Positions 35,887 to 64,000 of a stretch of 64,000 nucleotides of DNA are shown here, one piece after another. Made by a program: the position numbers and the translations under genes. Origin of the DNA: an uncultured beta proteobacterium (lineage in GTDB: Bacteria > Pseudomonadota > Gammaproteobacteria > Burkholderiales > Burkholderiaceae_C); the NCBI GenBank assembly GCA_903828235.1, contig CAIKLM010000082.1, forward strand, positions 1 through 64,000, read 5' to 3'. The stretch's first letter is position 1. The number at the start of each line of letters is the position of its first letter. The notes beneath the pieces are model-generated. The model searched no databases, was not told where the DNA came from, and saw nothing but the letters and a program-made list of their open reading frames with translations.

Positions 35887-35920
35887 GGTCGTGGTGTCGT
35901 CGGGGTGGCGTTGGCGCCGC

Positions 35921-39574: not shown

Positions 39575-39598
39575 CTCCTAGTGGATTTCCAAGTGGCC

Positions 39599-39662
39599 GC
39601 CGCGGAACCGGCTCTGCCGGGCCGCTGGCGGCGCCCCTTGAGGGGAGCGCCGTCAGGCGCTA
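39599..39662. repeat. Dispersed GC-rich repeat between boxC and boxB
   Basis: GCCGCGGAACCGGCTCTGCC, GGCCGCTGGCG and GGCGCCCCTTGAGGGGAGCGCC form a hairpin-rich element followed by GCGCC, GTCA, GGCGC. It matches the repeat at 38065 over its first 33 bases with two differences. It lies between two co-directional box genes. Confidence 0.8.
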
Positions 39663-39673
39663 CGGGGTGGTCG

Positions 39674-41332: not shown

Positions 41333-41382
41333 GGCGGGCTCCTGGGATGAAGTGGGGTTCAGGTGGCGATCGGTGCGTGAGA

Positions 41383-41396
41383 TGAACAATAGTGCT
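41383..41396. promoter_or_regulatory. BoxR operator-like site at the boxC -10 box
   Basis: TGAA-CAATAG-TGCT matches TGCA-N6-TGCA with two changes. It covers the -10 hexamer (41386-41391) of the boxC promoter. The spacing to the next site is 31 bp. Confidence 0.6.
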
Positions 41397-41414
41397 CGTC
41401 TCTGAGGATGTAAA
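41386..41414 (-). promoter_or_regulatory. boxC operon promoter
   Basis: On the reverse strand TTTACA (41414-41409) and TATTGT (41391-41386) are 17 bp apart, five and four matches to the consensus. The -35 touches one BoxR-type site and the -10 lies inside another. The predicted start lies about 45 bp before the boxC GTG. Confidence 0.65.
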
Positions 41415-41427
41415 GCACTTTAATGCA
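41414..41427. promoter_or_regulatory. BoxR operator-like site at the boxC -35 box
   Basis: AGCA-CTTTAA-TGCA matches TGCA-N6-TGCA with one change. On the reverse strand it reads TGCATTAAAGTGCTTTAC, matching 15 of 18 bases with the site at 42372. It ends at the first base of the -35. Confidence 0.65.
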
Positions 41428-41437
41428 TTTCTTGAAG

Positions 41438-42391: not shown

Positions 42392-42413
42392 GGTGGATCG
42401 GCGGTCGTAAGGT
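42385..42413 (+). promoter_or_regulatory. Promoter of the boxD-ligase-importer operon
   Basis: A perfect -35 TTGACA (42385-42390) and TAAGGT (42408-42413) are 17 bp apart. The predicted start is near 42420, about 55 bp before the first ORF. BoxR-type sites lie at its upstream edge (42372-42385) and just after the start (42421-42434). Confidence 0.65.
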
Positions 42414-42420
42414 GCTGGCG

Positions 42421-42434
42421 CGCACAATAGTGCA
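42421..42434. promoter_or_regulatory. BoxR operator-like site between boxR and the boxD operon
   Basis: CGCA-CAATAG-TGCA matches TGCA-N6-TGCA with one change. It covers the boxR -10 (42424-42429) and the start region of the forward promoter, so one bound site could block both. It is 49 bp from the site at 42372. Confidence 0.65.
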
Positions 42435-42452
42435 TAGCCCGTCCGGCGGCAA
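42424..42452 (-). promoter_or_regulatory. boxR promoter
   Basis: On the reverse strand TTGCCG (42452-42447) and TATTGT (42429-42424) are 17 bp apart. The -10 is the same hexamer as at the boxC promoter and lies inside an operator-like site. Confidence 0.55.
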
Positions 42453-42474
42453 GCCGGGATGTCTGGTCTCCCTC

Positions 42475-42675
42475 ATGAACCCCGACACCTTCCGACAGCA
42501 GATCGCCGCGTTCACCGCGCGGCTGGCCGGCCGGCCGCTCGACACGGCGCTGGACGCCAGGCTCAACGCCGAGTGCGGCCCCGGCAGCACCACCTACCGC
42601 GAGCTCGAGGCCAGCTGTCGCGTGCTGGTGCTCTACCTGCTGCCGCAGGGCCGCATCGACTTCACCCGGGAGTGA
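42475..42675 (+). pseudogene. Short ORF, likely remnant of a DUF4863 protein
   Basis: This 66-residue ORF has the same codon bias as real genes here. Its first two-thirds (FRQQIAAFTARLAGRPLDTAL, then LNAECGPGSTTYRELEASC) resemble the N-terminus of DUF4863 proteins such as the hydroxylaminobenzoate lyase family. The end, LLPQGRIDF, resembles an internal segment of the same family normally about 40 residues further on. I infer an internal deletion joined these pieces and truncated the protein. It is the first ORF of the boxD operon and stops three bases before boxD. It could also be a functional small protein; I saw nothing to prove either. Confidence 0.45.
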
Positions 42676-42677
42676 CC

Positions 42678-44237
42678 ATGAGCGAACTGCTGAACAACTT
42701 CGTGGCCGGCCGCTGGCAGGCCGGCAGCGGCGCGGGCACGCCGCTGTTCGATCCCGTCACCGGCGACGAACTCGTGCGCGTCGACGCCACCGGGCTGGAC
42801 CTGCCCGCCGCCTTCGCCTTCGCGCGCACCACGGGCGGCGCGGCGCTGCGGGCGCTGAACTACGGCCAGCGCGCCGAGCTGCTGGCGCGCGTCGGCGCCG
42901 TGCTGCAGTCGCGGCGCGACGACTACTACGCCCTCTCGCTGGCCAACAGCGGCACGGTGAAGAACGACACCGCGGTCGACGTCGACGGCGCCCTGTACAC
43001 GCTGGCGCAGTACGCGAAGTGGGGCGCCGAGCTGGGCAAGGGCGCGGGCGAGCGCCGCTTCCTGCTCGACGGCGAGGCCGCCCGGCTGGGCAAGGAGCCG
43101 CCGTTCCTGAGCCAGCACGTGCAGGTGCCCACGCCGGGGCTGGCGCTGTTCATCAACGCCTTCAACTTCCCGTCCTGGGGGCTGTGGGAGAAGGCCGCGC
43201 CGGCGCTGCTCAGCGGCGTGCCGGTGGTGGTCAAGCCCGCCACGGCCACGGCCTGGCTGACGCAGCGCATGGTGGCCGACGTGGTCGAGTCCGGCGTGCT
43301 GCCGGCAGGCGCCCTGAGCGTCGTCTGCGGCAGCTCGGCGGGCCTGCTCGACGCGCTGGAGCCCTTCGACGTGTTGTCGTTCACCGGCAGCGCCGACACG
43401 GCCGCCGTGATCCGCCGCCACTCCGCGGTGGCCGAGCGCTCGGTGCGCACCAACATCGAGGCCGACAGCCTCAACAGCGCGCTGCTGATGCCCGGCGAGG
43501 CCCCGGGTTCCGAGGCCTTCGAGCTGCAGGTCAAGGAGGTGGCGCGCGAGATGACGGTCAAGTCGGGGCAGAAGTGCACCGCGATCCGCCGCGTGCTGGT
43601 GCCGGCCGCGCTGTACGGCGCGGTCGCCGAGGCGGTGTCGGCCCGCCTGGCGAAGGTCAGCGTGGGCAACCCGCGCCACGAGGCCGTGCGCATGGGCGCC
43701 CTCGTCAGCCGCGCGCAGAAGGCCGCGGTGCTCGAGGGCCTGGCGCGGCTGAGGACGCAGGCCGAGGTGCTGCACGACGGCGCGCGCCAGCCCCTGGTGG
43801 ACGCCGACCCGGAGCGCTCGTGCTGCGTCGCGCCCACGCTGCTGGGCACGCGCGATGCCGACGGCGCGGCGCTGGTGCACGACCACGAGGTGTTCGGCCC
43901 CGTCAGCACGCTCGTGGCCTACCGCGACCTGCCGCACGCGCTGGCGCTGGCACGGCGCGGCCAGGGCTCGCTGGTGGCCTCGGTGTACGGCAGCGACGCT
44001 GCCGCGCTGGCCGGCGCCGCGCTGGAGCTGGCCGCCAGCCACGGCCGCGTGCACGTGGTCAGCCCCGAGGTGGCGGCCACCCACACCGGCCACGGCAACG
44101 TGATGCCGCAGTCGTTGCACGGCGGCCCCGGCCGCGCTGGCGGCGGCGAGGAGCTCGGCGGCCTGAAGGCGCTGAACTTCTACCACCGCCGCGCCGCGCT
44201 GCAGGCCGGCAGCGCCGTGCTGGGCGCGCTGGGCTGA
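42678..44237 (+). CDS. boxD: 3,4-dehydroadipyl-CoA semialdehyde dehydrogenase
   Basis: This 519-residue NADP-type aldehyde dehydrogenase oxidises the ring-opened semialdehyde to 3,4-dehydroadipyl-CoA. The residues are Asn163 ([10 protein letters not shown]), Lys186 (VVVKPATA), Glu261 (NIEADSLNS) and catalytic Cys300 ([10 protein letters not shown]). The C-terminus has [24 protein letters not shown], typical of the PaaZ/BoxD branch. The protein ends after the ALDH domain, with no fused hydratase as found in PaaZ. ATG 42678 follows the short ORF by two bases. It is linked to boxABC through the shared control region. Confidence 0.93.
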
Positions 44238-44276
44238 GCCCCGCCACCGAGCTGCCCGAAACCCGGAGACAAGCCC

Positions 44277-45853
<1,577 letters not shown>

Positions 45854-45857
<4 letters not shown>

Positions 45858-46648
45858 GCCAGGGCTTCGTCGACATCGACTGGGCCGGCCGCCCGGTGCG
45901 CGTCGAGCACGCCTGGGTGGGCGAGGGCGCCACGACGCTGGTCTTCCTGCACGAGGGCCTGGGCTCGGTGTCGATGTGGCGCGACTTCCCGGCCCGCCTG
46001 TGCGCGGCGCTGGGCTGCCGCGGCCTGGTGTACTCGCGTCCCGGCTACGGCCGCAGCACGCCGCGCGCGGCCGGCGAGCGCTGGGATCCCGACTTCATGC
46101 ACCGCCAGGCGCACGAGGTGCTGCCGGCGCTTCTGCAGGCCCTGGGCGTGCAGGCGCCGTACGCGCTGTTCGGCCACAGCGACGGCGGCTCCATCGCGCT
46201 GCTGCACGCGGCGCGCTGGCCCGCCCGGGTGAGCCGCTGCGTGGTGCTGGCGCCGCACATCCTGGTGGAGGACCTGTCCATCGCCAGCATCGAGAAGGCC
46301 CGCGCCGCCTACGAGACGACCGACCTGCGCCAGCGCCTGGCGCGCCACCACGACGACCCCGATTCCGCCTTCCGGGGCTGGAACGACATCTGGCTGGATG
46401 CGCGTTTTCGCGGCTGGAACATCGCCGCCGAGATCGGCACCATCGCGTGTCCGTTGCTGGCGGTGCAAGGGCTCGACGACGAGTACGGCACGCTGGCGCA
46501 GATCCGCGGCATCCGCGAGCGGGTGCCGCAGACGCAGCTGCTCGAGCTGCCCGCCTGCGGCCACTCGCCGCACCGCGACCAGCCCGAGCGGCTCATCGCC
46601 GCCGTCGGCGCGTTCTTCCAACACCACCACCCGGAGACGACCCCTTGA
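45854..46648 (+). CDS. Alpha/beta hydrolase of the box cluster
   Basis: This 264-residue alpha/beta hydrolase starts at GTG 45854 on a 4-bp overlap with the ligase stop. The oxyanion motif LHEGLGS appears early, the nucleophile elbow is GHSDGGS, and the catalytic Asp and His lie near DDEYG and CGHSPHRDQPE. The family includes esterases, lactonases and thioesterases. Beside a CoA ligase it may be a benzoyl-CoA or intermediate thioesterase that relieves trapped CoA, or an esterase that releases benzoate; either is inference. The next gene starts on TTGA overlap. Confidence 0.8.
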
Positions 46649-47808
46649 ACATCACCCGCATCGCCCTGGCCGCCGCCGTCGCGCTGGCCGCCCCGCTGGC
46701 CGCGCAGGCCCAGCAGGCCAAGCTCAAGGTCGGCCTCATGCTGCCGGCCACCGGCACCTTCGCCGCCCTGGGCACGGCCATCGAGAACGGCTTCCGGCTC
46801 TACGTGGACGAGCAGGGCGGCAAGCTCGCCGGCCGCGAGATCGAATTCGTGCGCGTCGACGACGAGAGCGACCCCTCCAAGGCCACCGACAACGTCAACA
46901 AGCTCATCAAGCGCGACAACGTCGACGTGATCGTCGGCACCGTGCACTCGGGCGTGGCGCTGGCCATGGCGCGCGCCGTGCGCGAGAGCGGCACGCCGCT
47001 GATCGTGCCCAACGCCGGTGCCGACGCCATCACCGGCCCGCTGTGCGCGGCCAACATCGTGCGCAGCAGCTTCAGCAACTGGCAGCCGGGCTTCGCCTCG
47101 GGCGTGATGGCGGCCCAGAAGGGCTACAAGCGCGCGGTCACCATCTACTGGAACTACGCCGCGGGCCAGGAGTCGGCCAAGGGCTTCACCGAGGCCTTCG
47201 AGAAGGGCGGCGGCAAGGTCATCAAGGAGCTCACGCTGCCGTTCCCCAACGTCGAGTTCCAGGCCCTGCTCACCGAGATCGCGGCCCAGAAGCCCGACGT
47301 GGTCTTCGCCTTCTTCGCCGGCGCCGGCGCCGCGAAGTTCGTGAAGGACTACGACGCCGCCGGCCTGCGCCGCAGCACGCCGCTCATCGGCTCGGGTTTC
47401 CTGACCGACGGCGTGCTCGAGGCCCAGGGCGCCTCGGCCCAGGGCCTGCAGACCGCGCTGCACTACGCCGACGGCCTGAACACGCCGCGCGACAACAAGT
47501 TCCGCGCCGCCTACGCCGTTCGCTACAAGCTGCAGCCCGACGTCTACGCCGTGCAGGGCTACGACGCGGCGCAGATCCTGGCCGCCGGCCTCAACGCGGT
47601 GAAGGGCGACGTGAAGAACCGCGACGCCATGCTGACGGCGATGCGCAAGGCCAGCATCGACAGCCCGCGCGGCAAGTACACCCTGGCCGCCGCCGGCAAC
47701 CCGGTGCAGGACTTCTACATCCGCGAGGCCAAGGGCCGCGACAACGCCATGACCGGCATCGCCGTGAAGGTGCTGCCCGACCCGGCCCGCGGCTGCAACC
47801 TGCGCTGA
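46645..47808 (+). CDS. ABC importer periplasmic binding protein, aromatic acid type
   Basis: This 387-residue branched-chain amino acid-type binding protein has a signal peptide (RIALAAAVALAAPLAAQAQQ). It starts at TTG 46645, overlapping the hydrolase stop by 4 bp. Landmarks are LKVGLMLPATGTFAALGTAI, FVRVDDESDPSKATDNVNKL and VDVIVGTVHSGVALAM. The C-terminal lobe has FAGAGAAKFVKDYDAAGL and VQGYDAAQIL. Related proteins (HbaE-like) bind benzoate or 4-hydroxybenzoate. It leads a complete five-gene importer placed behind the benzoate ligase. Confidence 0.88.
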   Translation: MNITRIALAAAVALAAPLAAQAQQAKLKVGLMLPATGTFAALGTAIENGFRLYVDEQGGKLAGREIEFVRVDDESDPSKATDNVNKLIKRDNVDVIVGTVHSGVALAMARAVRESGTPLIVPNAGADAITGPLCAANIVRSSFSNWQPGFASGVMAAQKGYKRAVTIYWNYAAGQESAKGFTEAFEKGGGKVIKELTLPFPNVEFQALLTEIAAQKPDVVFAFFAGAGAAKFVKDYDAAGLRRSTPLIGSGFLTDGVLEAQGASAQGLQTALHYADGLNTPRDNKFRAAYAVRYKLQPDVYAVQGYDAAQILAAGLNAVKGDVKNRDAMLTAMRKASIDSPRGKYTLAAAGNPVQDFYIREAKGRDNAMTGIAVKVLPDPARGCNLR

Positions 47809-47841
47809 GGCGCGGCGCCACGCCCACCACCCCTGCACCGC

Positions 47842-48723
47842 ATGGACTTCGCCACTTTCCTGATCCAGTGCCTGAACGCGGTGCAGTACGGGCTGCTGCT
47901 GTTCCTGGTGGCCAGCGGGCTGACGCTCATCTTCGGGATCATGGGCGTCATCAATCTGGCCCACGGCAGCTTCTACATGATCGGCGCCTACATGGCGTTT
48001 GCGCTGTCGGCGCCGGTGGCCGCCACCTTCGGCGGCGGCTTCTTCTCGGTGCTGGCGGTGGGCGTGGTGCTGGCGGTGCTGCTGGGCTACGTGCTCGAGT
48101 GGGCCTTCTACAGCTACCTCTACGAGCGCGAGCACCTGCAGCAGGTGCTCATGACCTACGGCCTGATCCTCGTGTTCGAGGAGATGCGCAGCCTGATCGT
48201 GGGCGACGACGTGCACGGCGTGAAGGTGCCACCGCTGCTGAGCGCCGCGCTGCCGCTGGGCGAGATGATGACCTACCCGGTCTACCGGCTGTTCATCTCG
48301 GGCGTGTGCATCGCGCTGGCCGTGGGCATGTACCTGGTGTTCACGCGCACTCGGCTGGGCATGATGATCCGCGCCGGCAGCAGCAACCGCGAGATGGTGC
48401 AGTCGCTGGGCGTGGACATCAGCTTCCTGTACCGGGTGGTGTTCGCGGCCGGCGTGGCGCTGGCGGCACTGGCCGGCATGGTGGCGGCGCCCGTGAGCAG
48501 CGTGTACCCGGGCATGGGGCAGTCGGTTCTGATCATCTGCTTCGTGGTGGTGGTGATCGGCGGCATCGGGTCCATCCGCGGCGCGCTGGTGGCGGCGCTG
48601 CTGATCGGCTTCGTCGACACCTTCGGCAAGGTGCTGCTGCCCTCGGCCGCCGGCGTGCTGGTGTACGTGCTGATGGCCTTGATCCTTCTCTGGCGGCCTG
48701 ACGGCCTTTTCAAAGCAGGCTGA
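47842..48723 (+). CDS. ABC importer permease 1 (LivH-like)
   Basis: This 293-residue inner-membrane permease has about eight hydrophobic segments. It has the family core LIQCLNAVQYGLLLFLVASG, IFGIMGVINLAHGSFYMIGAY, RAGSSNREMVQSLGVDIS and the EAA-like GGIGSIRGALVAALLIGF. It follows the binding protein by 33 bp and precedes the second permease by two bases. It pairs with that permease to form the pore of the predicted aromatic-acid importer. Confidence 0.9.
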   Translation: MDFATFLIQCLNAVQYGLLLFLVASGLTLIFGIMGVINLAHGSFYMIGAYMAFALSAPVAATFGGGFFSVLAVGVVLAVLLGYVLEWAFYSYLYEREHLQQVLMTYGLILVFEEMRSLIVGDDVHGVKVPPLLSAALPLGEMMTYPVYRLFISGVCIALAVGMYLVFTRTRLGMMIRAGSSNREMVQSLGVDISFLYRVVFAAGVALAALAGMVAAPVSSVYPGMGQSVLIICFVVVVIGGIGSIRGALVAALLIGFVDTFGKVLLPSAAGVLVYVLMALILLWRPDGLFKAG

Positions 48724-48725
48724 CC

Positions 48726-49751
48726 ATGAGCGACGGCATCCAACGCCCGCGCGCGGGCCAGGTCGGCTTCGTCATCGCGGTGTTCGCCGCGCTCGCGGCC
48801 TACCCGCTGGTGGCGGGCAGCTACGGGCTGGACCTCGTCGCCAAGATCATGATCTTCGCGATCTTCGCGCTGAGCCTGGAGCTGCTGGTGGGCGGCACCG
48901 GCCTGGTGTGCTTCGGCCACGCGGCCTTCTTCGGCATCGGGGCCTACGCGGCGGTGCTGCTGAGCCCGGGCTACGACGCCGCCAACCTGCTGTGGCTGCT
49001 GCCGGCCTGCGTGGCCGCAGCGGCGCTGTACGCGCTGGCCGTGGGCGCGCTGAGCCTGCGCACCAAGGGCGTGTACTTCATCATGGTGACGCTGGCCTTC
49101 GCGCAGATGGCCTACTACGTGGTGCACGACACGCCGCTGGGCGGCGGCACCGACGGCATCTACCTCAACGCCAAGCCGGCGATCCCGGGCGTGTTCGAGC
49201 TCAAGGGCGGCGTCGTCATGTACGGCTTTGCCTGGGGGGCGCTGCTGCTGGTGTTCGCGCTGCTCGCGGTGGTGTCGCGCTCGCGCTTCGGGCGCGCGCT
49301 GGCGGGCATCCGCGTCAACGAGCAGCGCATGCGCGCCACCGGCTTTGCCACCTACCCCTACAAGCTGGCGGCCTTCACGCTCAGCGGCGCCATCGCCGGC
49401 CTGGCGGGCTTCCTCTACGCGGTGAAGGACGGCTACGTGAACCCCGAGCTGATGAGCTGGCACCTCTCGGGCTCGGTGCTGATCATGGTCATCCTCGGCG
49501 GCCTGGGCCACCTGCGCGGCGCGCTGATCGGCGCCTTCGCTTACGTGCTGCTGCAGGAGTTCTTCAAGAGCGAGGCGATCTTCGGCGACTTTGCCCGGCA
49601 CTGGCACCTGGGCATGGGCCTGACCATCATCGCCAGCGTGGCGCTGCTGCCGCGGGGGCTGGTGGGCATCCCTTCGCAGCTGGCGGCGCGGCTGGCCGGG
49701 CGCGCCTCGCGGCGCGCGGAGGCCCAGCCGGGCCTGAAGGAGCAGCGATGA
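48726..49751 (+). CDS. ABC importer permease 2 (LivM-like)
   Basis: This 341-residue permease has about nine hydrophobic segments. The LivM core is IFAIFALSLELLVGGTGLVCF with GHAAFFGIGAYAAVLL, then ALRTKGVYFIMVTLAF-like LSLRTKGVYFIMVTL, RVNEQRMRATGFATYPYKL and GGLGHLRGALIGAFAYVLL. Its stop overlaps the first ATPase gene (ATGA). It is the second half of the importer pore. Confidence 0.9.
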   Translation: MSDGIQRPRAGQVGFVIAVFAALAAYPLVAGSYGLDLVAKIMIFAIFALSLELLVGGTGLVCFGHAAFFGIGAYAAVLLSPGYDAANLLWLLPACVAAAALYALAVGALSLRTKGVYFIMVTLAFAQMAYYVVHDTPLGGGTDGIYLNAKPAIPGVFELKGGVVMYGFAWGALLLVFALLAVVSRSRFGRALAGIRVNEQRMRATGFATYPYKLAAFTLSGAIAGLAGFLYAVKDGYVNPELMSWHLSGSVLIMVILGGLGHLRGALIGAFAYVLLQEFFKSEAIFGDFARHWHLGMGLTIIASVALLPRGLVGIPSQLAARLAGRASRRAEAQPGLKEQR

Positions 49752-50527
49752 GCACCGCGGCGGCATCACCCGGCGAGGTCTTGCTGCGCGGCCGCGGCAT
49801 CACGCGCCGCTGGGGCGGCCTGGTGGCCGTCAACGATGTCTCGCTGGAGCTCTGGCGGGGCGCCTTGCACGCCGTGATCGGCACCAACGGCGCGGGCAAG
49901 AGCACGCTGATCAACATCCTCTCGGGCGAGTTCCCGCCCTCGGCCGGCACGGTCGAGCTGCTGGGGCAGGACATCACCGCCTGGTCGCAGCCGCGCCGCG
50001 CGCGCGCGGGGCTGGGGCGCAGCTACCAGCGCACCACCATCTTCCCGAGCTTCTCGGTGCTCGAGAACTGCCGCCTGGCTGCGCAGGCCCGCACCCCCAG
50101 GCCCTGGGCGCTGTGGGAGCCCGCGGCGCGCTGCAGGGCCAGCAACGCCGCCGCGCGCGAGGCCGCCGAACGCACCGGCCTGGCCGACGTGCTCGAGCGC
50201 CCCGCCGGCCTGCTGAGCCACGGCCAGAAGCGGCAGCTGGAGATCGCCATGTGCCTGGCCACCGCGCCGCAGGTGCTGCTGCTCGACGAGCCGCTGGCCG
50301 GCATGGGCGCCGAGGAGACCGAGCGCATGCTGGCCCTGCTGCACGAGCTGAAGGCCGGTCACGCCATCCTGCTGGTGGAGCACGACATGGACGCCGTGTT
50401 CCGCGTGGCCGACCGCATCACGGTGATGGTCAACGGCGGCGTCATCGCGCACGGCACGCCCGAGGCCGTGCGCGCCGACGCGCAGGTGCAGGCGGCGTAT
50501 CTCGGTGGGCACGATGGCGGGCACTGA
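49748..50527 (+). CDS. ABC importer ATP-binding protein 1 (LivG-like)
   Basis: This 259-residue ATPase has Walker A GTNGAGKST, a Q-loop near ARAGLGRSYQRTTIFPSF, the signature LLSHGQKRQLEIAM, Walker B VLLLDEPLAGMG and the switch His in LVEHDMD. It energises the importer with the second ATPase. The start at 49748 overlaps the permease stop. The signature is SHGQ rather than SGGE, as seen in LivG-type ATPases. Confidence 0.92.
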   Translation: MSTAAASPGEVLLRGRGITRRWGGLVAVNDVSLELWRGALHAVIGTNGAGKSTLINILSGEFPPSAGTVELLGQDITAWSQPRRARAGLGRSYQRTTIFPSFSVLENCRLAAQARTPRPWALWEPAARCRASNAAAREAAERTGLADVLERPAGLLSHGQKRQLEIAMCLATAPQVLLLDEPLAGMGAEETERMLALLHELKAGHAILLVEHDMDAVFRVADRITVMVNGGVIAHGTPEAVRADAQVQAAYLGGHDGGH

Positions 50528-50528
50528 C

Positions 50529-51257
50529 ATGACGACCGCCACCGCCGACCCCATCCTCGACGCGCGAGCCATCCACGCCTGGTACGGCAGCAGCCACGTG
50601 CTGCACGGCGTGGACCTGGTCATCGCCCGCGGCGAGACCGTGGGCCTGCTCGGCCGCAACGGCATGGGCAAGAGCACGCTGATCCGCACGCTGCTGGGCC
50701 ACGTGGCGCAGCGCGAGGGCCAGATCCGCCTGTTCGGCGAGGACTTCTCGCGCGGGCGCCCGCACGAGGTGGCGCGCCGCGGCGTGGCCTACGTGCCCGA
50801 GGGCCGCGGCGTCTTCCCCAACCTGAGCGTGCGCGAGAACCTCGTCATGGCCGCCAAGCCCGCCAAGGTGGCTTCGTGGGGGCGCGGCTGGAGCCTGGAG
50901 CGCGTGCTGGAGACCTTCCCGCGGCTGGCCGAACGCATCGGCCACCCTGGCGGCCAGCTCTCCGGCGGCGAGCAGCAGATGCTGTCGATCGGCCGCGCGC
51001 TGATGACGCAGCCCGAGCTGGTGATCCTCGACGAGGCCACCGAGGGCCTGGCGCCACTGATCGTGGCCGAGATCTGGCGCGTGATCGGCGAGATCCGTGC
51101 CGACGGCATCGCCACGCTGATCGTCGACCGCAACTACCGCAAGGTGCTGGAGCACGCCGACCACGCCGTCGTGCTGCAGAAGGGCACGGTGGTGCTGCAG
51201 GGCGCCAGCGCCGCGCTGCGCGACGATGCCGCGCTGGCGGAGTTCCTCGGCGTCTGA
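50529..51257 (+). CDS. ABC importer ATP-binding protein 2 (LivF-like)
   Basis: This 242-residue ATPase has Walker A GRNGMGKST, the Q-loop RRGVAYVPEGRGVFPNLSV, the signature LSGGEQQMLSIGRAL, Walker B LVILDEATEGLAP and a D-loop. The usual switch His region reads IVDRNYRKVL, with Asn in place of the common His of VEQN, as in LivF. I start at 50529, one base after the first ATPase stop; GTG 50505 and ATG 50514 are in-frame alternatives that overlap it. It ends the importer operon, 3 bp from a convergent gene. Confidence 0.92.
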   Translation: MTTATADPILDARAIHAWYGSSHVLHGVDLVIARGETVGLLGRNGMGKSTLIRTLLGHVAQREGQIRLFGEDFSRGRPHEVARRGVAYVPEGRGVFPNLSVRENLVMAAKPAKVASWGRGWSLERVLETFPRLAERIGHPGGQLSGGEQQMLSIGRALMTQPELVILDEATEGLAPLIVAEIWRVIGEIRADGIATLIVDRNYRKVLEHADHAVVLQKGTVVLQGASAALRDDAALAEFLGV

Positions 51258-53235: not shown

Positions 53236-53265
53236 CCGGCACCCCGGATCACACCGTGGTGCCGG
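53236..53265. promoter_or_regulatory. Inverted repeat upstream of the Rieske oxygenase gene
   Basis: CCGGCACC, a 14-base spacer, and GGTGCCGG form a perfect 8-bp palindrome ending 30 bp before the oxygenase ATG. It lies in the divergent gap and could be an operator. A TAGACT hexamer (53280-53285) is a possible -10. Confidence 0.45.
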
Positions 53266-53295
53266 CCGCGCGCTCGGCCTAGACTGGCTGCCATC

Positions 53296-54699
53296 ATGCA
53301 ATCGCACCTCAACGACCGCATCACCCGCGTCGGCCCCGGCACGCCCTGTGGCGAGCTGCTGCGGCGCTACTGGCAGCCCGCGGCGCTGCTCGACGAGTTC
53401 GACCCGCGCTTCGACCCCCGCATGGCTGGCCGCCCGCTGAAGGCCGTGCGGCTGCTGGGCCAGGACCTGGTGCTGTTCCGCGACGCCGATGGCCGCTGGG
53501 GCCTGCTCGACCGCGACTGCCCGCACCGCGGCGCCGACCTGGCCTTCGCGCGGCACGAGGGCGACCGCATCCGCTGCCCCTTCCACGGCTGGGCCTTCGA
53601 CGCCGAGGGCCGCTGCCTGGAGACGCCCGCCGAGCCTTCCATCAACGGGGTCGGCTCCACCCTTTGCCAGCGCGTGCGCCAGCGCCGCTACCCCACGCAG
53701 GTGGTGGCCGGCGTCGTGTGGGCCTGGCTGGGCCCCGAGGGCCAGGAGCCGCCGGCGCTGCCGGCGCTGGACGCCTTCGTCGCGCCGGCCAGCCACGCCT
53801 TCGCCTTCAAGGGCCAGTGGCACTGCAACTGGCTGCAGGCCGTGGAGGTGGGCATCGACCCCGCGCATCCGAGCTTCCTGCACCGCATGCTCGACGACGA
53901 CCCCGGCGCAGACGCCTACGGCCGCCAGTTCCGCAGCGCCAGCGTGGGCGACGTCGACGGCCAGCGCTGGCCGATGACGCGCGTGATGCGCGAGCGCTGC
54001 AGCCCCGAGATCCGCCACGAGGCCGTCATGCCTGAGATCTCGCCCGGCCTGACGCGCATCACCACGCTGCGCTTGATCGACGAGCGCCACACCCACGTGC
54101 GCGTGACGAACTCGCTGTTTCCGCAGACCTTCGTGATCCCGCTGTCGGACACGCTGACCATCACGCAGTGGCACGTGCCGGTGGACGACACGCACACCTA
54201 CTGGTACAGCTTCTTCACCAGCTTCGGCGCGCCGCTGGACCACGAGACCATGCGCGCGCAGCGCCTGCCGCACCTGCATCTGCCCGACTACGTGCCGCGC
54301 CACGGCCGCCACGACGACTGGGGCTTCAGCCCCGAGGAGCAGCGCACGCGCACCTTCCTCGGCCTGGGCGAGGACGACATCAACCGCCACGACCAGTGGG
54401 CCGTGGAGAGCATGGGCCCGATCCAGGACCGCACGCGCGAGCACCTGGGCACCAGCGACAAGGTCATCATGGCCAACCGGCGGATGCTGCTGGCGGCCAT
54501 CGACGCCGTGCAGGCCGGCGGCACGCCGCCGATGGCGCTGGACGCCGCCGCGGCGGCCGCGCTGACCGGCCCGGCCACCATCGACTGCATCGCCCCGGCG
54601 CAGGGCTGGGAGGCGCACTGGGCCGCCAAGGCCCGCGCGCTGCGCGAGGCCGCTCCCTGGCTGGCCGCGCCGTCGCCCGCCGCGGCCGCGCCGGCATGA
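53296..54699 (+). CDS. Rieske non-heme iron oxygenase, phthalate-dioxygenase-like
   Basis: This 467-residue alpha-subunit-only oxygenase inserts O2 into an aromatic or O/N-substituted substrate. The Rieske ligands are Cys75, His77, Cys94 and His97 (CPHRG and CPFHGW). The mononuclear iron set is Asp188, His191 and His196 (GIDPAHPSFLH). It is closest in layout to phthalate 4,5-dioxygenase and vanillate demethylase-like enzymes. The ATGA overlap couples it to a glutamine-synthetase-like ligase, and a ferredoxin follows. No reductase gene is nearby. Substrate inference is given in the findings. Confidence 0.85.
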   Translation: MQSHLNDRITRVGPGTPCGELLRRYWQPAALLDEFDPRFDPRMAGRPLKAVRLLGQDLVLFRDADGRWGLLDRDCPHRGADLAFARHEGDRIRCPFHGWAFDAEGRCLETPAEPSINGVGSTLCQRVRQRRYPTQVVAGVVWAWLGPEGQEPPALPALDAFVAPASHAFAFKGQWHCNWLQAVEVGIDPAHPSFLHRMLDDDPGADAYGRQFRSASVGDVDGQRWPMTRVMRERCSPEIRHEAVMPEISPGLTRITTLRLIDERHTHVRVTNSLFPQTFVIPLSDTLTITQWHVPVDDTHTYWYSFFTSFGAPLDHETMRAQRLPHLHLPDYVPRHGRHDDWGFSPEEQRTRTFLGLGEDDINRHDQWAVESMGPIQDRTREHLGTSDKVIMANRRMLLAAIDAVQAGGTPPMALDAAAAAALTGPATIDCIAPAQGWEAHWAAKARALREAAPWLAAPSPAAAAPA

Positions 54700-56141
54700 C
54701 GCCGGCCGAGCTGCTGGCCCGCGTCGAGGCCGCGGGCCTCGAGCAGGTGCGCGTGGCCTGGGCCGACCTGCACGGCAGCCACCGCTGCAAGACGCTGGTG
54801 GTGGGCGGGGGCTTCGGCACGCGCGCGCTGGCCGCGGCGCTGGAGGGCGGCGTCGGCCTCGTGAGCACGCTGCTGCTGAAGGACACGGCCGACCGCACGG
54901 CGCTGCCGGTGTTCGAGCCCGGCGCGCTCGACGGCCTGCCCGGCTTCGGCGCCGCCAACAACCTGCTGCTGTGGCCCGAGCCGGCGAGCTTCGTCGTGCT
55001 GCCCTGGGCGCCGCGCACCGGCTGGCTGCGCGCCACGCCGCGCTGGGCTGACGGCCGCCCGGTCGAGGCTGACCCGCGCGGCGTGCTCGAGCGCGCGCTC
55101 GGGCGGCTGGCCGACGCGGGCTACACGCTGCGCGTGGGGCTGGAGGTGGAGTTCCACGTCTACCGCCTCGATGCCGCGCCGCTGCCGGCGGCGGTGCACG
55201 GCTGGCCCGCCGAGCCAGCGGCGGTGCACGCGCTGCACCCGGGCCACGGCCTGCTCAACGAGGCCTGGGCCGACCGCGCCGACGCCGTGTTCGCCACCGT
55301 GCGCCGCGTGGCCGAGGGCCTGGGCCTGCCGCTGGCCAGCCTGGAGGTGGAGTTCGGCCCCAGCCAGCTGGAGGCGGTGTTCTCGGCGACCGACGCGCTG
55401 ACGGCGGCCGATCACCTCGTCGCCTTCCGCAACGGCGTGCGCCAGGCGCTGGCCCGCGAGGGCTGGCACGCCACCTTCATGGCGCGGCCGCCGTTGCCCG
55501 GCGCCATGGCCAGCGGCTGGCACCTGCACCAGAGCCTGGCCACGGCCGACGGCCCGCAGGCCGGCCGGAATGCCTTCGTGCGGGGCGCCGCGGGCGGCGG
55601 CGCGCACGAGGCGCGCGCCGTGCTGTCGGACACCGGCGCGCACTGGCTGGCCGGGCTGCTGGCGCACGCGCCGGCCCTGGCCGCGCTGAGCGTGCCCACC
55701 GCGGTGGGCTTCGAGCGCTTCAAGGGCAGCCCGATGGCGCCCACCGCGGCGCACTGGGGCTTCGACAACCGCGGCGCCATGCTGCGCGTGATCGGTGCGC
55801 CGGGCGACGCCGCCACGCGCATCGAGAACCGCCTGGGCGAGCCGCTGGCCAACCCCTACCTGTGCCTGGCCGGGCAGGTGGGCGCGGGCCTGGACGGGCT
55901 GGCGCGCCGGCTGGAGCCCGGCGCCGCCGTGCGCGCCCCCTACGAGCCGCAGCCCGCGCCGCTGCCGGCCACGCCCGCGGCGGCGCTGGACGCGCTGGCC
56001 GCAGACGCCGTGCTGTGCGAGGCCCTGGGCCCGGCCCTGTGTCGGGTGCACGACGCGGTGCGCCGTGCCGAGATCGCGCGCCGCGCCGCCGCCCCCGACC
56101 CCGCGGAGTGGGACCGCCGCGAGCTGTTCGGCCGCTTCTGA
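54696..56141 (+). CDS. Glutamine-synthetase-like gamma-glutamyl ligase
   Basis: This 481-residue member of the glutamine synthetase superfamily keeps the beta-grasp entry (LEQVRVAWADLHGSHR) and active-site elements: Glu150 and Glu152 in GLEVEFHVYR, Glu219 and Glu226 in LEVEFGPSQLEAV, His276 in SGWHLHQSL, NRGAMLRVI and RIENRLGEPLANPYL. It lacks the GSI adenylylation segment around Tyr400 of GlnA. Such GS-like enzymes glutamylate amines (aniline, isopropylamine, polyamines) rather than ammonia. The start overlaps the oxygenase stop (ATGA), which implies one pathway. GlnA itself is elsewhere in the window, so this is not the housekeeping enzyme. Confidence 0.82.
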   Translation: MTPAELLARVEAAGLEQVRVAWADLHGSHRCKTLVVGGGFGTRALAAALEGGVGLVSTLLLKDTADRTALPVFEPGALDGLPGFGAANNLLLWPEPASFVVLPWAPRTGWLRATPRWADGRPVEADPRGVLERALGRLADAGYTLRVGLEVEFHVYRLDAAPLPAAVHGWPAEPAAVHALHPGHGLLNEAWADRADAVFATVRRVAEGLGLPLASLEVEFGPSQLEAVFSATDALTAADHLVAFRNGVRQALAREGWHATFMARPPLPGAMASGWHLHQSLATADGPQAGRNAFVRGAAGGGAHEARAVLSDTGAHWLAGLLAHAPALAALSVPTAVGFERFKGSPMAPTAAHWGFDNRGAMLRVIGAPGDAATRIENRLGEPLANPYLCLAGQVGAGLDGLARRLEPGAAVRAPYEPQPAPLPATPAAALDALAADAVLCEALGPALCRVHDAVRRAEIARRAAAPDPAEWDRRELFGRF

Positions 56142-56271
56142 CGACCCCCCGGACGCCGCCCACCGAGCCCCGATCCATGCCGCAAGGGCATGGCAGCTAG
56201 TCGGGAATGCCGCAGGGCGGCACCGGCCCGGGTGCCGCGACAATGCAGGGGCGCCTGTCGCCGTGCCCCCG

Positions 56272-56595
56272 ATGCCCACGATCCATTTCGACCACGCCGA
56301 CGGCCACCGCGTCACGATCCAGGGCATGCCGCGCCAGAGCCTGATGAAGGCCGCGGTGGCGGCCGGCGTCGACGCCATCGCCGCCGACTGCGGCGGCACG
56401 CTGAGCTGCGCCACCTGCCACGTGATGATCGACGAGCCCTGGCGCGGCCGGCTGCCGGCGCCGTCTTCCGACGAGGACGCCATGCTCGAACTCACCGCCG
56501 CCCCACGCGAGCCGGGCAGCCGCCTGTCGTGTCAGGTCGTGCTCGACGCCGCGCTCGACGGGCTCGTCGTGCGCCTGCCAGCCCGACAGTACTGA
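56272..56595 (+). CDS. [2Fe-2S] ferredoxin, adrenodoxin/ISC type
   Basis: This 107-residue ferredoxin has the cluster Cys pattern Cys40, Cys46 and Cys49 (DCGGTLSCATCHV), with the fourth at Cys87 (RLSCQVV). A GACAAT hexamer about 30 bp before ATG 56272 may be a -10. It lies 130 bp after the ligase and 13 bp before the TRAP transporter. It would deliver electrons to the Rieske oxygenase; the matching reductase is not in the window. Confidence 0.88.
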   Translation: MPTIHFDHADGHRVTIQGMPRQSLMKAAVAAGVDAIAADCGGTLSCATCHVMIDEPWRGRLPAPSSDEDAMLELTAAPREPGSRLSCQVVLDAALDGLVVRLPARQY

Positions 56596-56608
56596 GACCC
56601 TGCCCACC

Positions 56609-57091
56609 ATGCGCCTGCTGGAAATCCTTGCCAAGGCCGCCGCCGTCCTCGCCGGCGTGCTGCTGACGGCGATCACGATGATGACGGTGGCCAGCGTCGT
56701 CGGCCGCAACACCACCGGCTGGACGCTGGTCGGCGACTTCGAGCTTGCCGGCTCGGCAGCCGGCGCGGCCATCGCGCTGTTCCTGCCCTGGTGCCAGTGG
56801 GAGCGCGGCCACATCATCGTGGACTTCTTCACCACGCGCGCCTCGGACGCCACCCGTGAGCGGCTCGACCGCTTCGGCGCCCTGGTGCTGGCCGCGGTGC
56901 TGGCGCTGATGACCTGGCGCAGCGCGATCGGCGGCCTCAAGGCCTGGGAGTCGCAGACCGGCTCGATGATGCTGGGCCTGCCGGAGTGGATCGTCTACGT
57001 CGGCATCGTGCCCGGGCTCGGCCTGGCGGCCGTGATCGCGCTGGCGCAGGCGGTGCGGGGCTTCGGCCCGGCGGCGGAGGTCCAGCCGTGA
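56609..57091 (+). CDS. TRAP transporter small permease (DctQ type)
   Basis: This 160-residue protein has four hydrophobic segments, as expected of the small TRAP subunit. The family motif is TLVGDFELAGSAAGAAIALFL and the Cys-containing PWCQWERGHIIVDFF that follows. It helps the large permease import a substrate bound by the periplasmic subunit, driven by a sodium or proton gradient. It overlaps the large subunit start (GTGA). Confidence 0.9.
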   Translation: MRLLEILAKAAAVLAGVLLTAITMMTVASVVGRNTTGWTLVGDFELAGSAAGAAIALFLPWCQWERGHIIVDFFTTRASDATRERLDRFGALVLAAVLALMTWRSAIGGLKAWESQTGSMMLGLPEWIVYVGIVPGLGLAAVIALAQAVRGFGPAAEVQP

Positions 57092-58404
57092 GCCCGATGG
57101 TGCTGACCCTGCTGATCTTCGGCACGATGCTGGTGCTGATGGCGATCCGCGTGCCGATCGCGGCGTCGATGTTCGTGGCCGGCGGCCTGGGCTACCTGCT
57201 GCAGTCCGGCTGGCTGCCGCTGGCGAACTTCCTGAACACGCAGGCCTTCGCGCGCTTCGCCAGCTACGACCTCAGCGTCATCCCGCTGTTCATCCTGATG
57301 GGCAACTTCGCCACGCAGGGCGGGCTGAGCCGGGCGCTGTTCGAGTTCGCGGCCGCGGTGATGGCGCGCTTCAAGGGCGGCCTGGCGATGGCCTCGGTGC
57401 TGGCCTGCGCGGCTTTTGGCGCCATCTGCGGCTCCAGCGTGGCCACCGCCGCCACCATCACGCAGGTGGCGCTGCCGGAGATGAAGAAGCACGGCTATTC
57501 CGGACGCCTGGCCACCGGCACGCTGGCCGCCGGCGGCACGCTGGGCATCCTGATCCCGCCGTCGGTGCCGCTGGTGATCTACGCCATCCTCACCGAGCAG
57601 AACATCGCCAAGCTCTTCGCCGCGGCCATGGTGCCGGGTCTGATCGCGATGCTGATGTACATGATCGCCATCGCGATCTACGTGCGCGTGGTGCCCGGCC
57701 ACGCACCCGAGCACGACGAGGCGCCGGCGCTCACGCTCAAGGCGCTGTCGGGCATCGTGCCCATCGCGGTGATCTTCCTCGTGGTGTTCGGCGGCATCTA
57801 CGGCGGCGTGTTCACGCCCACCGAGGGCGCGGGCGTGGGCGTGGCGGCCACTTTCGTGGCGGCGCTGGCCCGGCGCGAGCTGACCTGGGCCAAGTTCGCG
57901 CACTGCTTCACCGCCACGGCGGCGGCCTCGGGGATGATCTTCCTGATCTTCCTGGGTGCCGATCTGATGAACGCCGCGCTGGCGCTGACGCAGGTGCCGG
58001 GGCAACTGGCCGAGGTCGTGAAGGGCTGGGACGTGCCGCCGGTGGCGGTGGTCGGGGCCATCCTGCTGTTCTACGTGGTGCTCGGCGCCGTGATGGACGA
58101 GCTCAGCATGATCCTGCTGACGATCCCGATCTTCTTCCCGGTGGTGATGGGCCTGGACTTCGGACTGCCGCGCGAGAGCGTGGCGCTGTGGTTCGGCGTG
58201 ATGGTGCTGATGACCGTGGGCTTCGGCCTGCTGGCGCCGCCGGTGGGGCTGAACGTCTACATCGTCAACAGCCTCGCCCGCGACGTGCCCATCGCCGAGA
58301 GCTACCGCGGCGTGATGCCCTTCCTGGTGGCCGACACGCTGCGCGCGCTGCTGGTGCTGTTCGTGCCGGCCATCGCGCTGTGGGTGCTGCCCTTCGTCGG
58401 GTGA
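57088..58404 (+). CDS. TRAP transporter large permease (DctM type)
   Basis: This 438-residue permease has about 12 to 13 hydrophobic segments. The DctM blocks include LIFGTMLVLMAIRVPIAASM, IPLFILMGNFATQGGLS, GAICGSSVATAATI, TLGILIPPSVPLVIY, FTPTEGAGVGV and GFGLLAPPVGLNVYIVNS. It starts at GTG 57088, overlapping the small subunit; ATG 57097 is an alternative three codons later. It forms the translocation path. Confidence 0.93.
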   Translation: MSPMVLTLLIFGTMLVLMAIRVPIAASMFVAGGLGYLLQSGWLPLANFLNTQAFARFASYDLSVIPLFILMGNFATQGGLSRALFEFAAAVMARFKGGLAMASVLACAAFGAICGSSVATAATITQVALPEMKKHGYSGRLATGTLAAGGTLGILIPPSVPLVIYAILTEQNIAKLFAAAMVPGLIAMLMYMIAIAIYVRVVPGHAPEHDEAPALTLKALSGIVPIAVIFLVVFGGIYGGVFTPTEGAGVGVAATFVAALARRELTWAKFAHCFTATAAASGMIFLIFLGADLMNAALALTQVPGQLAEVVKGWDVPPVAVVGAILLFYVVLGAVMDELSMILLTIPIFFPVVMGLDFGLPRESVALWFGVMVLMTVGFGLLAPPVGLNVYIVNSLARDVPIAESYRGVMPFLVADTLRALLVLFVPAIALWVLPFVG

Positions 58405-58486
58405 ACCCTGACGGCCAGGGGTTTGGCCGCGCGTTAACTTTCCGGGGCAGGCAACCCGCCCTCATCACCCCCGCCCAGGAGACGAC

Positions 58487-59533
58487 ATGATCCAACGCCG
58501 CACCCTCGTGCAAGGTGCCGCCGCCACGGTGGCCACGCTCGGAACGCCGCTGGCCGCCTTCGGCCAGCAGACCGTGACGCTGAAGTTCCACACCTTCATG
58601 CAGCCGATGAGCAACGTGTGGCTCACGATGCACAAGCCCTGGATGGAAAAGGTCGAGAAGGACAGCGGCGGCCGCATCAAGTTCGAGGCCTACCCGGCCA
58701 TGCAGCTCGGCGGCACGCCCGTGCAGCTGTACGACCAGGCGCGCGACGGCGTCGTCGACATCGTCTGGACGCTGCCGGGCAACACCGCGGGCCGCTTCCC
58801 GCGCATCGAGGTCTTCGAGCTGCCGTTCATCATGAACAACGCCGAGGCCACGTCGAAGGCCTACTGGGAGTACTTCCAGACCCAGTGCCCCGACGAGTTC
58901 AAGGAGACGCACGTCATCGCGCTGCAGGTGCACGGCCCGGGCGTCATCCACACCGCCAACAAGGCCGTCAAGAGCGCGGCCGACCTTCGCGGCCTGAAGA
59001 TGCGCGGCCCGACCCGGCAGGTGACCAAGCTGCTGGGCTCGCTGGGCGCCACGCCGGTGGGCATGCCGCTGCCGGGCATCCCCGACGCGCTGAGCAAGGG
59101 CACGATCGACGGCGCCGTCATCCCCTGGGAGGTGGTGCCCTCGGTCAAGGTGCACGAGCTGACCAAGTTCCACGGCGAGTTCCCGGCCGACATGCCGGCG
59201 ATCTACACCACCACCTTCGTGATGGCCATGAACAAGGCCCGCTACGACGGCCTGTCGGCCGACCTGAAGCGCGTGATCGACGCCAATTCCGGCATGTCGG
59301 CCTCGGCCTTCCTGGGCCGCACGCAGCAGGGCAACGACCCCATCGGCCGCAAGTCGGCCACCGACCGCGGCAACACCATCCACACCTTCACGCGGGCGGA
59401 AACGGAAGACTTCATCAAGCGCTCCGCCGCCATCGACGACGAGTGGGTGGCCGACATGGACAAGCGCGGCTTCAAGGGCGCGCAGCTGCTGTCCAGCGCG
59501 AAGGCGCTGATCGCCAAGCACGGCCGCGGCTGA
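58487..59533 (+). CDS. TRAP transporter periplasmic binding protein (DctP type)
   Basis: This 348-residue protein has a Tat-like signal (MIQRRTLVQGAAATVATLGT, then AAFGQQT). The DctP fold follows, with TLKFHTFMQPMSNVWLTMHK, FEAYPAMQLGGTPVQLYDQA and the substrate Arg in LRGLKMRGPTRQVTKLLGS. It binds a carboxylate-bearing solute for the DctQM pair. A good AGGAG ribosome site precedes ATG 58487. Its gene lies at the end of the oxygenase module, 10 bp from the convergent ROK kinase. Confidence 0.92.
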   Translation: MIQRRTLVQGAAATVATLGTPLAAFGQQTVTLKFHTFMQPMSNVWLTMHKPWMEKVEKDSGGRIKFEAYPAMQLGGTPVQLYDQARDGVVDIVWTLPGNTAGRFPRIEVFELPFIMNNAEATSKAYWEYFQTQCPDEFKETHVIALQVHGPGVIHTANKAVKSAADLRGLKMRGPTRQVTKLLGSLGATPVGMPLPGIPDALSKGTIDGAVIPWEVVPSVKVHELTKFHGEFPADMPAIYTTTFVMAMNKARYDGLSADLKRVIDANSGMSASAFLGRTQQGNDPIGRKSATDRGNTIHTFTRAETEDFIKRSAAIDDEWVADMDKRGFKGAQLLSSAKALIAKHGRG

Positions 59534-62395: not shown

Positions 62396-63247
62396 TCAGA
62401 GGTCGGTGCGCAGCCGCCAGATCTCGGGGAACAGCACCACGTCGAGCATCTTGCGCAGGTAGCTCACGCCGCCGGTGCCGCCGGTGCCGCGCTTGAAGCC
62501 GATCACGCGCTCCACGGTCGTCAGGTGGCGGAACCGCCACAGGCGGAAGGCGTCCTCCAGGTCGGTGAGCTCCTCGCCGAGCTGGTACAGGTCCCAGTGC
62601 TCGCGCGGCGCGCGGTACACCTGCAGCCAGGCGGCCTCGACCTCGGGGCTCTCGGCGTAGGGCTGCGTCCAGTCGCGCTGCACGTGGCTGGCCGGCACCG
62701 GCAGGCCGCGGCGGGCCAGCAGGCGCAGGCTCTCGTCGTACAGGCTGGGCGCGGTGTACGCGGCATCGACCACGGCCAGCAGGTCGGGCCGGTGGGCGTG
62801 CGGGCGGCGCATCGCGGCGTTCTTGTTGCCCAGCCGGAACTCGATGCAGCGGTACTGCCAGCTCTGGAAGCCGCTGCTCTTGGCCAGCGACGCGCGCATC
62901 GCGCTGTACTCGGGCGGCGTCATCGTGGCCAGCACGTCCCAGGCGTGCACCAGCTGCTCCATGATGCGGCTGACGCGCGCCAGCATCTTGAAGGCGGTGG
63001 GCAGGTCGTCGGCCGCCACGGCGGCGCTGGCCGCGGCCAGCTCGTGCAGCATCAGCTTCATCCACAGCTCGCTGGTCTGGTGCTGCACGATGAACAGCAT
63101 CTCGTCGTGCGCGCCGCTCAGCGGGTGCTGGGCGCCGAGCACGGCGTCGAGGTGCAGGTAGTCGCCGTAGCTCATGCTGCCGGCGAAGTCGAGCTCGGCG
63201 CCGTCGACCGAGGCGGCGTCCGGGGGGTGGAAGGGGCAGCCGCTCAT
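62396..63247 (-). CDS. kynA: Tryptophan 2,3-dioxygenase
   Basis: This 283-residue heme dioxygenase converts L-tryptophan to N-formylkynurenine. The distal His56 lies in [14 protein letters not shown], the substrate-loop motifs [15 protein letters not shown] and SSGF follow, and the heme-iron His is in [11 protein letters not shown] near the C-terminus with [16 protein letters not shown]. The length is normal for the bacterial family. It lies 10 bp downstream of kynU, so the two form a kynurenine-pathway transcript. Confidence 0.96.
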
Positions 63248-63257
63248 GCCGGGTTCC

Positions 63258-64000
63258 TCAGGTCACCGTGAGGCGCTGGTTGAACTCGGGCCGGCGCCAC
63301 TCCTCGCGCTCCAGCACCTGCCGCAGGTGCTCGGCGGCGTCGTAGGCGTCGACGTGGCGCAGGTACAGCGGCGTGAAGCCGAAGCGCAGCACGTCCGGGG
63401 CGCGGAAGTCGCCGATCACGCCGCGCGCGATGAGCGCCTGCACCACCGCGTAGCCGATGTCGGGGTGGCTGAGGCAGACCTGGCTGCCGCGCTCGGCGTC
63501 GGCGGCCGGCGAGGCCAGGGCCAGGCCGGGGCAGGTGGCCTGCACGCGCTCGGCGAACAGCCGCGTCAGCGCCAGGCTCTTGGCGCGCAGCGCGGCCATG
63601 CCGCCCAGTGAGTCGGCCGCGAGCACGGTGTCGACGCCGCACTCCAAGGCCGCCAGGCTCAGCACCGCCGGCGTGCCGCACTGGTAGCGCGCGATGCCCG
63701 GCGCCGGCCGATAGCCACTCATGAACTCGAACGGCGCGGCGTGCCCGATCCAGCCCGCCAGCGGCTGCCAGAAGCGGCCCACGTGGCGCGGGTGCGCCCA
63801 CACGAAGGCCGGCGCGCCGGGGCCGCCGTTGAGGTACTTGTAGCCGCAGCCCACGGCGAAGTCGGCGCCGGCGGCGGTCAGGTCCACCGGCACGGCGCCG
63901 GCGCTGTGCGCCAGGTCCCAGATCACCAGCGCGCCGGCGGCGTGCGCGGCGGCGGTGACGGCGGCCATGTCGTGCATGCGGCCGCTGCGGTAGTTCACGT
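63258..64000 (-). CDS. kynU: Kynureninase, C-terminal part (5' end beyond window)
   Basis: This PLP enzyme splits kynurenine into anthranilate and alanine. About 247 residues are visible. The Schiff-base Lys is in [15 protein letters not shown], followed by [15 protein letters not shown] and the C-terminal [21 protein letters not shown]. The upstream part lies past base 64000; the in-frame ATG at 63998 is internal, not the start. It precedes kynA by 10 bp on the reverse strand. kynB, the formamidase, is not seen. Confidence 0.94.

Follow-up and report, generated by a model that had tools for sequence, protein, structure and literature searches.

The window analysed here is a 64,000-nucleotide stretch, bases 1-64000 of a 79268-base contig (CAIKLM010000082.1) from a genome that is 99.7% complete. 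It contains a run of six genes on the + strand that encode a Rieske oxygenase (RO), a glutamine-synthetase-like ligase (GS), a [2Fe-2S] ferredoxin (Fdx) and the components DctQ, DctM and DctP of a TRAP importer, each with a Pfam match over the curated cut-off (Table 1). RO and GS are joined by an ATGA overlap, and DctQ and DctM by a GTGA overlap. The preliminary description of this DNA had placed the six genes correctly apart from the beginning of RO: position 53236 is in frame yet is not a start codon, and the gene starts at 53296. RO carries the CPHR...CPFH cluster motif and the D-x2-H-x4-H iron motif, and its best PDB matches are 9ina, 7fhr and 7fjl. The closest named matches at GS are Rubrivivax metagenome-assembled genomes (MAGs; 87-88%), which points to a genome of Rubrivivax type.

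Table 1. Positions of the oxygenase-ligase-importer genes in the window, with one two-part oxygenase from a related locus
Feature	Position	Strand	Evidence
RO alpha subunit, SadA-like, phthalate-dioxygenase/LigXa type, 467 aa	53296..54699	+	Pfam Rieske 65 bits, LigXa_C 63 bits
GS-like ligase, SadB-like, glutamyl-organic-amine synthetase (GoaS), 481 aa	54696..56141	+	Gln-synt_C 231 bits, no Gln-synt_N match
Lys62 codon of the ligase, aligned to NpaA1 F75', proposed anion clamp	54879..54881	+	Alignment
[2Fe-2S] ferredoxin, adrenodoxin/putidaredoxin type, SadD position	56272..56595	+	Fer2 35 bits; PDB 4ltu and putidaredoxins
TRAP small permease DctQ	56609..57091	+	PF04290 74 bits
TRAP large permease DctM, GTG start	57088..58404	+	PF06808 289 bits; TIGR00786 over cut-off
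TRAP solute-binding protein DctP	58487..59533	+	PF03480 140 bits; best PDB match 5im2, E 1.8e-153
Split RO, two parts (example from locus L060)	L060:12288-13520 + L060:13587-13985	-	Motifs and Pfam

With GS alone as the query, we collected 52 named loci and surveyed 398 genomes of the window's family, which we take to be Burkholderiaceae in GTDB. At the survey limit of E <= 1e-100, about a fifth of the sampled family genomes (85 of 398) had a GS match, and these were spread over 42 of 135 genera; of the 84 places other than the window, 78 were retrieved. Loci from this survey are given L-numbers. Locus counts use 123 of the 131 loci, six that yielded no GS of the main gene cluster, including L081-L083, and two with identical GS having been removed; L057 was without a GS in the first gene calling, and near-copies of one species may stay in the counts (L060 and L061 are 99% alike). 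More than 1.6 kb was available upstream in 119 loci and more than 1 kb downstream in 114, and 85 "wide" loci had more than 8 kb on both sides. Locus genes bear the names of their gene clusters, representatives or near kin of which were scanned by Pfam or NCBIfam; ABM, Liv and nudix were named by reading.

A same-strand RO lay directly 5' of GS in 109 of the 119 loci, window included, with a 4-base overlap in 57, and Fdx was the next gene 3' of GS in 74 of 114. Because the loci had been found by GS alone, a pairing this frequent is beyond chance. The proposal that RO and GS form one system therefore stands, and the prospect that would have undone it, that the two are not neighbours in related genomes, was not borne out. 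RO was elsewhere in the locus in six of the 119, five of which have a divergent arrangement in Alphaproteobacteria; L048 was scored in this class with its RO called in two pieces. For the three most distant GS relatives (L081-L083, 29-31% identity), no RO was among the matches listed. GS without RO was seen with TRAP genes in L038, L051 and L077 and with gentisate genes in L136; where L051 and L077 would have RO, they have a flavin hydroxylase resembling MhpA and a 58-aa open reading frame (ORF).

GS has as its best solved relative NpaA1, a 1-naphthylamine ligase (PDB 8WWU), at 291 bits versus 134 for the next, in agreement with its first assignment to the amine-glutamylating ligases. Against the GlnA model it reached 167 of the 429-bit cut-off, and it lacks a Gln-synt_N match. 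A canonical GlnA with both Gln-synt_N and Gln-synt_C is a separate gene of the window (26519-27934), which argues against an exclusively biosynthetic role for GS. The amine-pocket glutamates E217 and E219 (NpaA1 E232 and E234) and the other catalytic GS residues checked are kept, as in a GoaS.

The amine pocket differs from that of NpaA1 in one loop. The amine pocket of NpaA1 is lined by a loop from the neighbouring subunit (V68'-M81'), of which A69', I70', G71', P72' and F75' are reported from docking to hold the ring (PMC11335346). Two alignments matched F75' to Lys62 of the window GS, with an offset of 15 between the numbering of the paper and that of the PDB chain, as deduced from E232/E234; the hydrophobic loop of the aniline-type ligases thus has a lysine here. 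Residues were counted in the 119 of 125 Sad-type GS (see below) longer than 400 aa. Lys62 was present in 119 of 119 and in none of five GS partnered with alpha/beta oxygenases, which have F, F, H, F and V. Residue 67 was Arg in 107, Lys in 9 and His in 3 of the Sad-type GS and A, S, A, T and G in the other five. The placement of Lys62 in the pocket comes from alignment to NpaA1, whose own pocket was described by docking; so placed, a cationic loop fits an amine bearing a carboxylate or sulfonate, and Lys62 may hold the acid group of the ring.

RO, GS and Fdx together correspond to the sad operon of Hydrogenophaga, which consists of the SadA oxygenase, the GS-like SadB and the ferredoxin SadD and deaminates 4-aminobenzenesulfonate; the sad report describes the operon as fairly conserved in all Hydrogenophaga genomes reported by then, and its natural substrate as unknown but thought to be a natural compound of similar structure (PMC5632844). 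The preliminary description could match the combination to no described cluster; the sad operon is such a match, and it rules out a cluster resembling nothing described. Like the sad genes, the window has an alpha-only RO directly before the GS gene, a [2Fe-2S] ferredoxin in third place and no amidotransferase gene in the stretch. The features of aniline-type systems are missing: RO is a single alpha subunit, with no beta gene in the stretch.

A tree of 41 GS sequences placed the window in a 12-row group (support 100/99) with Rubrivivax, Hydrogenophaga (L049 and two rows taken for it) and Comamonadaceae-type rows. The five alpha/beta-partnered GS clustered together (a single change; support 97/68, recovered in 96% of bootstrap trees), and GS of the sulfanilate degrader N. 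resinovorum SA1 lay on the window's side. L049, a Hydrogenophaga MAG, carries RO-GS. Its genome and five others taken for its genus (the g132 genomes, assigned to Hydrogenophaga from shared neighbours and the tree) have one strong RO each, 65-68% identical to the window's at E <= 7e-206, and in these six the next RO match is no better than 3e-49. We conclude that the RO-GS-Fdx genes are a new member of the Sad-type module, a described kind. Plasmid pSA3 of strain SA1 has RO and GS with a ferredoxin, an FAD oxidoreductase and a glutaminase nearby; the glutaminase (L163:16132-17043) is as expected if the oxygenase releases glutamine.

The sad operon is said to lack an amidotransferase gene and to have its reductase gene, sadC, elsewhere, and deletion of sadB reportedly abolished activity (Gan, in 2012). 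The gene calls of the stretch likewise include neither a reductase nor an amidotransferase, so the absence of a reductase remarked on earlier is real. In the source genome, no Reductase_C match was found at E <= 0.001, and one of the five NAD_binding_1 matches is BoxA in the window; the electron donor may be another NAD_binding_1 protein or belong to another family. Of the 79 loci listed, 14 have a reductase gene directly after Fdx; this order, RO-GS-Fdx-ferredoxin reductase, is found in relatives of another type, in which a Liv-type ABC importer mostly comes next (for example, plasmid 1 of Polaromonas JS666). The amidotransferase, too, is missing as first stated, but its absence is not the anomaly it was taken for: the amidotransferase-like NpaA2 was reported not to be essential in the Npa system (PMC11335346), and only 4 of the 85 wide loci hold an amidotransferase-like gene. 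We therefore rejected its absence as a diagnostic feature.

The solved proteins nearest to DctP are 5im2 and 5i5p, which, with 7nr2, we take to be binders of benzoate-like acids. DctPQM is accordingly predicted by homology to be an aromatic-acid TRAP importer. Together with the Lys62 loop, the kinship of DctP supports the earlier suggestion of an acidic aromatic substrate.

We next considered where the product might go. Matches to LigA or PcaH served as a proxy for protocatechuate cleavage, and PF07746 as a proxy for protocatechuate 4,5-cleavage. LigA or PcaH was present in 85 of 85 GS-bearing genomes versus 204 of 313 without GS, and LigA alone in 81 of 85 versus 166 of 313. The combined count omits five genomes with weak LigA scores, including two that carry GS and also PcaH, and keeps one genome without GS whose PcaH is under the cut-off. 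As a control rich in aromatic catabolism, we used genomes with gentisate 1,2-dioxygenase (GDO) and no GS, of which 41 of 49 had LigA or PcaH (p = 2e-4 versus 85 of 85); all GDO counts exclude ten genomes, two with GS, whose GDO scored below the family cut-off. At the genus level, all 42 GS genera have the route, with a chance probability of ~7e-5 given about 112 of 135 genera with the route by hand count. In the source genome, adjacent LigA and LigB genes have an amidohydrolase gene before and an oxidoreductase gene after them, presumably the order ligI-ligA-ligB-ligC; no GDO was found there at E <= 1e-80 and no PcaH at E <= 1e-60. Elsewhere, Palleronia has an annotated pca set next to GS, and a PcaB-like gene lies beside RO-GS in L053, L055 and L056 (the L053 score is just below the TIGR02426 cut-off), with a hydrolase/decarboxylase fusion also in L053 and L056.

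Taken together, these data lead us to a reading that we regard as probable, in which a Rieske oxygenase module of Sad type, dependent on glutamylation, is combined with a TRAP importer of aromatic acids and would serve the import, glutamylation and dioxygenation of an aminobenzoate. DctPQM would import the acidic aromatic amine. GS would then spend ATP to couple the aryl amine to glutamate through the gamma-carboxyl group of the latter, while Lys62, with residue 67, would hold the acid group of the ring. Fdx, reduced by a reductase encoded elsewhere, would feed the single-alpha RO, which would add two hydroxyl groups to the ring, one at the carbon bearing the amine and one at the adjacent carbon; loss of the amide would leave a catecholic acid. 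Judged from the pocket, the importer and the lower pathway, the substrate is likely to be an acidic aryl amine of the aminobenzoate kind. The first candidate would be 4-aminobenzoate, for which we put the chances at somewhat less than even; its product, protocatechuate, could enter the ligA-ligB cluster of the source genome. Conversion of 4-aminobenzoate to protocatechuate would be, by analogy, the carboxylate counterpart of that of 4-aminobenzenesulfonate to 4-sulfocatechol. A literature search over titles and abstract openings found no pathway combining aminobenzoate, GS and a Rieske oxygenase.

Several observations weigh against an aminobenzoate module of this kind. RO is absent in 4 of the 119 loci, and JS666, which bears the module and lies outside the 119 ligases, has Lys62 but Gln67. 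The identification with sad rests on genus, gene order and the tree rather than on the SadA and SadB sequences; within the 12-row group, the window's closer joining with Hydrogenophaga has weak support (81/59), and SA1 is a sulfanilate degrader as a strain, its pSA3 RO and GS being known here from their genes. TRAP genes are found in only 42 of the 85 wide loci, and TRAP, Liv (18) or TctC (13) genes in 59, a count made without a transporter baseline. As for the lower route, LigA is common (247 of 398 genomes) and PF07746 only a proxy, and PcaH by itself shows no enrichment (8 of 85 GS-bearing genomes versus 48 of 313). GS-bearing genomes are also rich in aromatic catabolism generally (GDO in 38 of 85 versus 49 of 313); for this reason, and because the genomes are related, the p-values above are loose. 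Finally, gentisate genes recur at the loci of relatives. Of the 38 genomes with both GDO and GS, 20 have the two genes on one strand and no more than 9.1 kb apart, and 31 of the 85 wide loci contain GDO, MPI or FPH. The module is embedded among gentisate genes in Comamonadaceae-type loci, and the genes for GDO, a flavin hydroxylase, RO, GS, Fdx and the TRAP proteins are consecutive on one strand in L047 and L048. Because 3,4-dioxygenation of 4-aminobenzoate cannot give gentisate, that substrate leaves these genes unexplained; the gentisate islands reflect either a shared importer of benzoate-like acids or a different substrate in those lineages.

These genes raise the alternative that the module feeds the gentisate pathway, from an aminohydroxybenzoate or a 3-substituted benzoate, with the TRAP genes serving 3-hydroxybenzoate or gentisate. 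NCBIfam matches over cut-off name representatives as gentisate dioxygenase, 3-hydroxybenzoate 6-monooxygenase and MaiA-type isomerase, and such genes adjoin RO-GS in many Comamonadaceae-type loci, in line with the excess of GDO among GS-bearing genomes. However, the source genome has no GDO at the limit given above, 47 of the 85 GS-bearing genomes have none over the cut-off, and in many of these loci a gene for a MarR-type regulator stands between RO-GS and the gentisate genes. We consider this explanation unlikely for the window.

A slightly less likely alternative is suggested by the genes downstream of the importer. There, on the other strand, a ROK-type kinase and an aminopeptidase (by ORF reading) are followed by tryptophan 2,3-dioxygenase (TDO) and kynureninase (KynU), both confirmed by Pfam (window 62396-63998, - strand). 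RO and GS might thus handle anthranilate derived from tryptophan. TDO/KynU neighbours also occur in L040 and L189, and in L057 KynU, TDO, RO and GS are collinear, with TDO/KynU at L057:3-1913 and 94 bp from TDO to RO. But only 2 of the 85 wide loci have TDO/KynU, the window has them on the opposite strand, and both intradiol-dioxygenase matches in the source genome look exported, extradiol catechol dioxygenases not having been searched for; we set this explanation aside. Least probable of all is that RO is a LigXa/VanA-type O- or N-demethylase and GS acts on polyamines or ammonia, the two being paired for regulation of separate reactions: RO does have a LigXa_C domain, and the top NCBIfam names for GS are gamma-glutamylputrescine synthetase and type III and type I glutamate-ammonia ligase, but these all score far below cut-off, and the overlap and pairing of the genes, the lead of NpaA1 by more than 150 bits, the separate GlnA gene and the function reported for the sad operon (PMC5632844) argue against it.

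If the aminobenzoate reading holds, many bacteria related to Rubrivivax and Hydrogenophaga would have an additional route for aminobenzoates, one of which is a folate precursor. The sad report treats the substrate of its genes in nature as an open question (PMC5632844), to which our data offer a short list and one residue. A broader proposal, which we put forward tentatively and with slightly less confidence than the choice of 4-aminobenzoate, is that the module is a widespread natural deaminating dioxygenase for aminobenzoate (4-aminobenzoate) from which sulfanilate degradation was recruited. Ligase pockets would then be of two types, largely decided by one residue: hydrophobic (F75') for neutral aryl amines that need no importer, and cationic (Lys62/Arg67) for acidic ones that travel with carboxylate importers. 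If true, this would supply a sequence rule separating acidic-amine from neutral-amine ligases.

Immediately upstream of the module, at 32697-51257 of the window, lie the box genes of aerobic benzoyl-CoA metabolism, a benzoate island that includes a Liv-like importer. BoxC, BoxB, BoxA, 3,4-dehydroadipyl-CoA semialdehyde dehydrogenase, benzoate-CoA ligase and PcaF are all over NCBIfam cut-offs; the importer, which extends to 51257, was recognized by gene clustering and reading. Among the relatives, seven alphaproteobacterial loci (L058, L060, L061, L062, L080, L169 and L196, with L060 and L061 near copies) have a split RO. The catalytic chain retains the iron site but not the segment holding both Rieske motifs, and a short gene just 5' of it, in the same orientation, encodes a Rieske protein of its own (~130-150 aa). 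This gene is called or annotated in six of the seven, and in L196 it is visible in a frame, unannotated. L070 is also without a Rieske motif, its gene call beginning inside the domain. A flavodoxin and an FAD reductase lie near the split RO in L060 and L169. NdmC/NdmD offer a precedent in which the Rieske domain is fused to the reductase instead (PMC4408171). A 100-aa protein resembling antibiotic-biosynthesis monooxygenases (ABM), named by reading and without an NCBIfam match, follows Fdx in many Comamonadaceae-type loci (L087, L102, L107 and others) and occurs in 19 of the 85 wide loci. A small 5-carboxymethyl-2-hydroxymuconate isomerase-like protein is encoded beside GS or Liv genes in L058 (L058:11380-11721), L140, L163 and others, in 10 of the 85 wide loci and also in SA1.

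Among known systems, the closest is the sad operon of Hydrogenophaga intermedia PBC (4-aminobenzenesulfonate 3,4-dioxygenase), which has the oxygenase, GS-like and ferredoxin genes together; Hydrogenophaga GS share the 12-row group of the window's ligase. The window differs in its TRAP genes directly after the module, in the LigA/LigB lower route of its genome, where sad leads to sulfocatechol, and in a substrate predicted to be a carboxylate. AtdA, TdnQTA and NpaA1-A5 likewise use a GS-like ligase to glutamylate an amine before a Rieske oxygenase acts, and the GS residues checked are common to both; they differ in their alpha/beta oxygenase, amidotransferase-like gene and hydrophobic loop in place of Lys62, and in an adjacent reductase in three of four records. 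We know of no GS partner in the phthalate dioxygenase family (7fjl, 7fhr and 9ina), whose members are the nearest solved relatives of the window RO and are, like it, alpha only. The TRAP solute-binding proteins 5im2, 5i5p and 7nr2, finally, resemble the window DctP in sequence.

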